Assembly (NCBI GenBank): GCA_019636015.1
Contig: JAHBYJ010000001.1
Location: forward strand, 186,001 to 250,000
DNA from: Parvibaculaceae bacterium
GTDB lineage: Bacteria > Pseudomonadota > Alphaproteobacteria > Parvibaculales > Parvibaculaceae
Length of the DNA stretch: 64,000 nucleotides
Direction: 5' to 3'
The translations under genes and the position numbers were made by a program. Under the pieces are notes generated by a model that saw only the letters and a program-made list of their open reading frames with translations, did no database searches and had not been told where the DNA came from. Within the stretch, counting starts at the first letter, position 1, and every line of letters begins with the position of its first letter. Below, piece after piece: positions 60,985-62,565 of the stretch.

Positions 60985-60999
60985 GGTGGGATTGGCGAA
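60985..60999 (-). repeat. att-like direct repeat, left copy (tRNA-Ser 3'-end-like)
   Basis: GGTGGGATTGGCGAA is identical to 62303-62317. With the three bases before it, GAGGGTGGGATT also equals 12 bases of the tRNA-Ser gene 3' end (62483-62494). Read on the minus strand it resembles TTCG-AATCCCACCCTC of the tRNA with a 2-bp insertion. Confidence 0.5.
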
Positions 61000-61042
61000 G
61001 GGCTGGCCAGAGCCCGATTCCAAATAGCAGTCGAATTCGCGC

Positions 61043-61103
61043 GCCTGACACTTTAGCCGAGGCTCACAAGAATACACCGCCTACGGATTATCCGGGAGTG
61101 ACG
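61043..61103. repeat. Diverged copy of the katG 3' end and terminator
   Basis: GCCTGACACTTTAGCCGAGG and the next seven bases (61043-61069) match 57870-57896 at 25 of 27 positions. The following 34 bases keep the outline of the katG terminator hairpin with several mismatches. There is no katG coding sequence upstream of it. Confidence 0.7.
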
Positions 61104-61209
61104 GTTGTTGTTAAGAGGAATCACTTGCTGTGCACTTTTAGCGGATAGCACTTGATAGACTGATGCACATACTGTTACCGCACAACCGTTCCAAATTTTA
61201 ATCGGACCG

Positions 61210-61247
61210 CCGTCACTGCACCTCGACTACTCTCGAGGTCACGACGG
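61210..61247. terminator. Imperfect hairpin downstream of the HNH gene
   Basis: CCGTC/GACGG (61210-61214, 61243-61247) enclose ACCTCGA/TCGAGGT (61220-61226, 61233-61239). There is no clear T-run on the minus strand, so termination is only a guess. Confidence 0.35.
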
Positions 61248-61324
61248 CTCTCAGCTGACCCATCCCACTAACAATCGCAACTCATCGCCCACGTTCCAGT
61301 AGATGCGGAGCCTTAAGGCAGTGT

Positions 61325-62269
61325 CTATCGCTCCCAGCGCGTCTCGGTAGCAAGATACTCCCATATAACAGTCTTCACCGTTATGGCGTCGGACCAGTCG
61401 ATAGAATAGCGATAGCGACCAGCCTCGACCGTCATCCAACCGCCCACCATGGCCTCTTCGTCCAGCAATTGGACGGTCATGCGACTGCCGACCTCTGGCC
61501 AGATGGCAAACTCCGCGTCGGTGCCGACTGTCTCGAAGGCGTCGCGCTGCTCAGGACTCAGTTGCCCCAACGGTACGAATGTGACGAGTTCCGGCGCTTC
61601 GAACAGCGGCTCGCCGATCTCGTGATAAGCGTGACCACGAGCATTCTTTACAATGACGCGCCGTACTTTGTCGGCATCGGGAAAGAGGACAAATGGCTGC
61701 AGGTTTGCGAACTGGAGAAGCTGTCCGTCCGGCCCCTTCTTGAGGGAACGAACTACGTGCCTGTTACTTCGCAGTATGGTCGCCGCTTCGGGATACCTCG
61801 TTGGATCCGGATATAGGCTGCCAACCATCACCGCATGAAGCACACAGAGAAGGTAATTCTCGTCGGAGGAGAAGCTGGAGTTGCAGCGCCGACAGACAAG
61901 AACCTGCGGCAGATAATCCATTTCACCACCCAAGCCGCCGTCATAGCTAGCACCCCGTGCTCGAAGTGCTTTAGTAAGAAGGGACTGCGTTGGAACATGG
62001 TCACGATTGCTCTCGACGTCGGCAATCACGGCACCACAGTGGATGCACCATGCCTTCAGCCTATCATCAGTGTAATCCCCAATTTCTCGCACTTGACGAA
62101 TCCTCCGCCAGAGTTGTGCATATTCACACAGCTGACGATCACCTGAATGAAGGTATGAAAACTCAGTGAAACCTGCCAACCCGCAAGCGGCCCCATTGAA
62201 GCTGAAAGCGAGTTGCTTTCGATTTCCATGTCGCTTGGTAGCGCGATGATCAGCAGCAGTATCGCTCAC
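61325..62269 (-). CDS. HNH-type zinc-binding protein, function unknown
   Basis: 314 residues. The pattern C75-x2-C78 (WCIHCGAV), D90-H91-V-P and C126-x2-C129-N130 (VCRRCNSSFSSDENYL) is that of a treble-clef HNH nuclease, with H91 and N130 as the expected catalytic or metal residues. The C-terminal half (about 180-314) is not recognised. The gene stands alone in AT-richer DNA between att-like repeats beside tRNA-Ser, unlike the chromosome around it, so it was probably acquired. It could be a mobile-element or defence endonuclease; that role is inferred only. Confidence 0.72.
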   Translation of the reverse strand: MSDTAADHRATKRHGNRKQLAFSFNGAACGLAGFTEFSYLHSGDRQLCEYAQLWRRIRQVREIGDYTDDRLKAWCIHCGAVIADVESNRDHVPTQSLLTKALRARGASYDGGLGGEMDYLPQVLVCRRCNSSFSSDENYLLCVLHAVMVGSLYPDPTRYPEAATILRSNRHVVRSLKKGPDGQLLQFANLQPFVLFPDADKVRRVIVKNARGHAYHEIGEPLFEAPELVTFVPLGQLSPEQRDAFETVGTDAEFAIWPEVGSRMTVQLLDEEAMVGGWMTVEAGRYRYSIDWSDAITVKTVIWEYLATETRWER

Positions 62270-62302
62270 GAAGGCTCAATCAGCGAGAAATAGAGGGGAG
62301 AC

Positions 62303-62317
62303 GGTGGGATTGGCGAA
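62303..62317 (-). repeat. att-like direct repeat, right copy
   Basis: GGTGGGATTGGCGAA, identical to 60985-60999. Read on the minus strand as TTCGCCAATCCCACCGTCTCC it follows the tRNA-Ser 3' end with a 2-bp insertion and one change. The distance between copies is 1.3 kb. Confidence 0.5.
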
Positions 62318-62430
62318 AACAGGCTTTGGCCTGTTTTCGTCCTTGGCCTGACGGCCTTCGGATCGAGCGGCCTTGCCGCTCGCCCCAAAACGCCTTTGGC
62401 GTTTTGTCGAACATGGGTTCTTTCCGCCCG

Positions 62431-62485
62431 CTCTTCCGCCATTAAAAAAGGCCCCCGGAAGGGGGCCGTTTTTAATGGCGGAGAG
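62431..62485 (-). terminator. tRNA-Ser terminator with extended inverted repeat
   Basis: The core stem GGCCCCC (62450-62456) / GGGGGCC (62461-62467), loop GGAA, is followed by a T-run on the minus strand. The repeat extends outward: 62431-62449 mirrors 62468-62485 with one indel and one mismatch, so the arm reaches the CCA end and acceptor stem of the tRNA. Confidence 0.8.
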
Positions 62486-62565
62486 GGTGGGATTCGAACC
62501 CACGGTACCCTTGCGAGTACGCCGCATTTCGAGTGCGGTACTTTCAACCACTCAGCCACCTCTCC
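62476..62565 (-). tRNA. tRNA-Ser (anticodon CGA)
   Basis: 90 nt including encoded CCA. Acceptor stem GGAGAGG (62559-62565) pairs with 62480-62486. The anticodon loop CTCGAAA gives anticodon CGA. A long variable arm typical of serine (GTACTCGCAAGGGTAC region) and the T-loop GTTCGAATC are present. Long frames over this segment are tRNA shadows. Confidence 0.96.

Follow-up and report, generated by a model that had tools for sequence, protein, structure and literature searches.

A lone HNH nuclease-like gene in a tRNA-Ser(CGA) hotspot, between direct repeats of probable composite origin

A lone gene for an HNH nuclease-like protein lies beside tRNA-Ser(CGA) in the window analysed here (the whole 64-kb stretch of a Parvibaculaceae genome), in a segment with a short direct repeat on either side. 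The explanation that we favour, with a probability of roughly 0.6 for the account as a whole, is that integrative elements seeded a cargo hotspot at the tRNA 3' end, that two alleles of this hotspot were later joined, and that a resident gene, here called X, was replaced by the HNH gene, a probable accessory nuclease of m5C-based defence. The two repeats would then be allelic copies of one old junction rather than the ends of a single element.

Layout of the locus

The direct repeat GGTGGGATTGGCGAA is exact over 15 bp (60985-60999 and 62303-62317) and extends, with 17 of 18 positions identical, over 60982-60999 versus 62300-62317. It is one of three exact direct repeats of at least 15 bp with a spacing below 2 kb in the window; the other two are at 21991/23269 and 53198/53978. 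A genome search found no copies of GGTGGGATTGGCGAA beyond these two, even at one mismatch. The original prediction, made from the sequence alone, described a perfect repeat around an AT-richer segment with a single HNH gene next to tRNA-Ser(CGA), and in all of this it was accurate: the GC content is 54.8% between the repeats and 64.2% in the whole window. The likeness that it saw between both repeats and the tRNA 3' end is also real. The right copy differs from that end (TGGCGGAGAGGGTGGGA) at 4 of 17 positions and the left copy keeps only GAGGGTGGGATT; the version in one relative, G012, has a single mismatch over 17 bp, and we therefore regard the repeat as a worn copy of the tRNA end. Both window copies contain GGCGAA, which is absent from the tRNA, and the GGCGAA adjoining the repeat agrees with the end of a GIY-YIG coding sequence. 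A terminator-like hairpin (62435-62482) lies in the noncoding module and adjoins the tRNA, and an rplU-like gene (63625-63951) follows the CDP-alcohol phosphatidyltransferase-like gene. The coordinates of the features are collected in Table 1.

Table 1. Features of the tRNA-Ser(CGA) locus, in window coordinates
Feature	Position	Strand	Remarks
katG	55710..57872	+	Far-side hotspot anchor in relatives; full-length in own genome
Left repeat: worn tRNA 3'-end copy fused to GIY-YIG gene end	60982..60999	+	Same position and context in G022
Remnant of GIY-YIG nuclease gene C-terminus (QAREFDCYLESGSGQPFANP)	61000..61045	-	G021, G022 and G016 have intact GIY-YIG genes here, used for frame comparison
Second copy of katG 3' tail, then the 12 initial codons of X; stop at end	61031..61199	+	76% to G012, 73% to G021
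HNH unit	61200..62293	no strand	No matching DNA in relatives from the genus
HNH nuclease-like gene, 255 aa	61325..62092	-	GTG start at 62092; ORF extends to 62269
Right repeat: degenerate tRNA-Ser 3'-end copy and GGCGAA	62294..62317	+	
Noncoding module, ~170 bp	62303..62475	no strand	Common to G001, G008, G012, G017, G021 and G025
tRNA-Ser(CGA)	62476-62565	minus	Hotspot anchor
CDP-alcohol phosphatidyltransferase-like gene	62729..63499	+	Conserved flank; named from inspection of the sequence only

The segment between the repeats is a mosaic

Read from the left, the repeat is followed by the GIY-YIG remnant, then by the katG tail with the start of gene X, then, from about 61200, by the HNH unit and finally by the right repeat. 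The HNH gene is the only intact gene in the segment, and in this sense the prediction that it is the sole cargo stands; it is not the only content, as older debris (a GIY-YIG end, a katG tail and the start of X) is also present. Because the left repeat adjoins a GIY-YIG fragment, a duplicated 3' end of katG and the opening codons of X, the repeats bound a mosaic and not one insertion. The GIY-YIG and katG pieces meet in a short similarity, TCGAACTCGCGCGCC versus TCGACCTCGCGGCC.

Intact copies of gene X, in G012 and G021, encode about 410 aa (L062:3160-4442 and L055:1439-2695, respectively); their DNA is 94% alike despite differing left flanks. Relative to these X-carrying genomes, the new DNA in the window begins at about 61200 and not at the left repeat. 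Only its right boundary coincides with a repeat; there is none at its left edge. In another relative, G022, the left flank reaches a single copy of the repeat and continues into an intact GIY-YIG gene, without an HNH gene. The left repeat is therefore older than the HNH gene and independent of it.

Turnover among relatives

Among the 27 genomes of the genus, the tRNA/rplU side of the locus is conserved and the other side is variable; in many relatives katG anchors its far end. This variable side is a hotspot of cargo turnover. For example, the six relatives listed in Table 1 share the right repeat and the next 170 bp, in front of different cargo. In G022 (L057), G016 (L058) and G021 (L055) small GIY-YIG genes sit at this tRNA 3' end, and the G016 frame reads into the tRNA-end copy (..FANPTLTGI). 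In G021 an 86% copy of its own katG 3' end follows hpnA and lies next to X; the left join is a different one, without the left repeat. In G017 (L061) a 243-bp direct repeat (86%), consisting of an alkB-like 3' end and the hotspot repeat, surrounds other cargo in the same architecture.

The hotspot is also an integrase target, since a 7.4-kb integrative element in G007 (L126:1468-8921) uses the same tRNA-Ser(CGA) end. This element has an integrase (DUF6538 and PF00589) next to the tRNA and ends on either side in a perfect 17-bp repeat, TCCCACCCTCTCCGCCA; it also carries a serine recombinase and a protein weakly like PDC-S32. The suggestion that the tRNA 3' end serves as an integration site is thus borne out by this element and by the variation of cargo in the genus. 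As was also noted at the outset, no integrase is visible in the segment: we found no integrase gene in 60985-62475, and no DUF6538 integrase in the window genome, which is ~84% complete. We saw no similarity between the 170-bp module and the integrase region of the Methylorubrum locus described below.

We propose that tyrosine-integrase elements using the tRNA 3' end would have seeded the hotspot first, and that recombination between alleles would then have reshuffled it. The window allele would be a join of two: one with hpnA, the repeat and the GIY-YIG gene, as in G022, and one with the katG 3' end, gene X, the repeat, the 170-bp module and the tRNA, as in G012. The exchange may have taken place at the short stretch where the GIY-YIG and katG ends are alike, with the tRNA-rplU side presumably anchored by homologous recombination. 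Since two hotspot alleles would be joined in this way, the repeats would be allelic copies of one worn attachment-site junction placed in tandem. Gene X would have given way to the lone HNH gene. This account is supported by the conserved right and varied left flanks, the single repeat with a GIY-YIG gene in G022, the duplicated katG 3' end in G021 with its remnant in the window, the architecture of G017, and the integrases beside this tRNA in G007 and Methylorubrum. A point against it is that the left join of G021 differs and has no left repeat.

Alternative explanations

The original prediction was of a mini-island or decayed element; on this view, one mini-island would have entered by integrase-mediated recombination between both repeats, the integrase later being lost. 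The repeats do resemble the tRNA 3' end and are unique in the genome, and integrase elements sit on this very tRNA in both G007 and Methylorubrum. However, chromosomal debris of the genus itself separates the HNH unit from the left repeat, and in G022 the left repeat is present but the HNH gene is not, so that the repeats do not behave as two ends of one island and we consider this origin unlikely. The comparison of relatives for presence or absence of the segment, proposed as a check, gave a divided answer: the HNH gene is confined to one genome of 27 and the right edge is at the repeat, but the left edge, at ~61200, is not. A somewhat better candidate, though still a doubtful one, is that only the HNH gene came in, at the right repeat, with an integrase acting in trans, and that gene X was deleted on the other side. 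This would suit the right edge of the HNH unit, which meets a tRNA-3'-end copy, and the five other family members that lie close to tRNA 3' ends and face them; against it, an attachment-site copy is absent at the left edge (61200), and the ~84% complete genome has no DUF6538 integrase.

That G016, G021 and G022 all have GIY-YIG genes at this tRNA end also brings to mind free-standing homing endonucleases, of which the HNH and GIY-YIG proteins could both be examples, cutting the tRNA flank and spreading by repair. Solitary nuclease genes at a hotspot are consistent with this. Yet the HNH family occurs on plasmids, at several tRNAs and in defence clusters rather than at one site, and its neighbours are Vsr and C5-methyltransferase genes, not a fixed target; we think this origin highly improbable. 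The join of two hotspot alleles remains our preferred explanation.

The HNH gene and its family

The GTG at 62092 is most likely the start of the gene, giving 255 aa rather than the 314 aa of the full ORF, because GGAGG lies 9 nt upstream and all homologues align from there. The gene is present in 1 of the 27 genus genomes and in 5 of 385 genomes of the class, and it is, as anticipated, not a stable core gene. At the DNA level, other genomes resemble this locus only over the gene and up to ~90 bp upstream of it. Against ten close homologues dN/dS is 0.05-0.11, the signature of purifying selection, which indicates a functional gene and not a decaying one.

Across 55 homologues C19, D31, H32, C67, C70 and N71 are invariant and C16 nearly so, and the protein thus has the zinc-cysteine and DH...N pattern of the HNH superfamily. 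The family is like HNH_5 (PF14279) in its CxxC / DH / CxxCN pattern and unlike it in having a conserved C-terminal half (EVGSRM, W219, YLAxExxW) beyond the model. HNH_5 is matched weakly by 54 of the 55 members, with 22.2 bits for the window protein against a cut-off of 27.5. None of the libraries searched holds a model that the family matches above cut-off: PADLOC gave no meaningful match for the family, PHROGs and NCBIfam gave nothing usable, and a PDB sequence profile search gave nothing. Foldseek and VIA-align, run on an AlphaFold model (pLDDT 81), returned no clear PDB match, a result that weighs neither for nor against an HNH assignment; the thioesterase and profilin matches were weak and we do not take them as meaningful.

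A family profile built from four sequences matched 67 loci in named genomes, nine plasmids and one viral contig, and had no match in phage records. The family is sporadic and spans several bacterial phyla, with members at 74-84% identity in Rhizobium, Nitratireductor, Hyphomonas, Sphingomonas, Methylorubrum, Thioclava and others. Vsr genes are found near the HNH gene at 26 of 66 distinct loci and C5-methyltransferase genes at 23, with one or the other at 33 and within 1.5 kb at 22. The class-wide base rate for Vsr is ~40 matches in 190 genomes, from which about 0.05 would be expected by chance in the 0.72 Mb examined (an estimate that takes ~3.3 Mb per genome). The HNH gene is not tied to these partners, as 15 of the 40 loci with full flanks have neither. 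Models for DrmD and DrmMI (DISARM), MzaB and MzaC (Mza) and PDC-S28 also match neighbours of family members, and some homologues lie within DISARM- or Mza-like clusters.

In Methylorubrum rhodinum (L138) the order is tRNA-Ser(CGA), integrase, tRNA 3' copy, HNH gene (75% identity) and a Vsr fragment. Five other members lie within ~320 bp of a tRNA 3' end (Thr, Arg, Ser, Lys and Gly), all facing it. At L148, L158, L164 and L194 no tRNA 3'-end repeat was found within the locus beyond the HNH gene, on its far side. The search for homologues near tRNA genes and in defence clusters, which the original prediction had recommended, thus succeeded on both counts, and the Vsr/C5-methyltransferase, DISARM-like and Mza-like neighbourhoods agree with its suggestion of a nuclease or defence module. 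The open-access literature on HNH proteins with Vsr or DISARM yielded no description of this family, which is not proof of absence.

We infer that the protein is most likely a DNA-cutting enzyme from an accessory family of m5C restriction or defence, here on its own. More tentatively, and with less likelihood than not, the family could be an undescribed nuclease module common to several m5C-based defence systems (DISARM, Mza, C5-methyltransferase-Vsr), one that also moves and works alone and that would act on DNA according to its cytosine-methylation state.

Relation to known systems

Integrative islands that target tRNA genes and carry defence genes have been described as serially inserted and immobilised (PMC12458937). 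The locus shares with these islands short repeats, one of them in the tRNA 3' end, serial insertion, lost integrases and defence-type cargo. It differs in that there is a single gene and no integrase relic, and in that the repeats do not bound one element. Of the marks of a tRNA-associated integrative element it shows sporadic presence, but neither end repeats nor an integrase.

Homologues lie in or beside C5-methyltransferase-Vsr clusters, class I DISARM and Mza, but the window locus is without their genes: we found no methyltransferase, Vsr, DrmD, MzaB or MzaC gene there. DISARM would have drm genes at the same locus; in this genome DrmD and DrmMI are instead at tRNA-Val. There a class I DISARM-like cluster (L211, G000:C1:1681000-1698000; C5-methyltransferase, Vsr, DrmD and DrmMI) lies with an integrase-like ORF beside tRNA-Val(CAC). 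The genome has two C5-methyltransferase-Vsr pairs away from the segment, one of them within the DrmD-DrmMI cluster, 1.4 Mb from the HNH locus. Because of these pairs, we conjecture, the lone HNH protein may have m5C marks as its targets.

In summary, this is a hotspot of an ordinary kind, with repeats of probably composite origin, and it illustrates how the joining of alleles, and not one insertion, can give rise to short repeats next to a tRNA. With a link to Vsr and C5-methyltransferase genes far above the base rate, and purifying selection even when it stands alone, the HNH family is a testable candidate for a defence nuclease.
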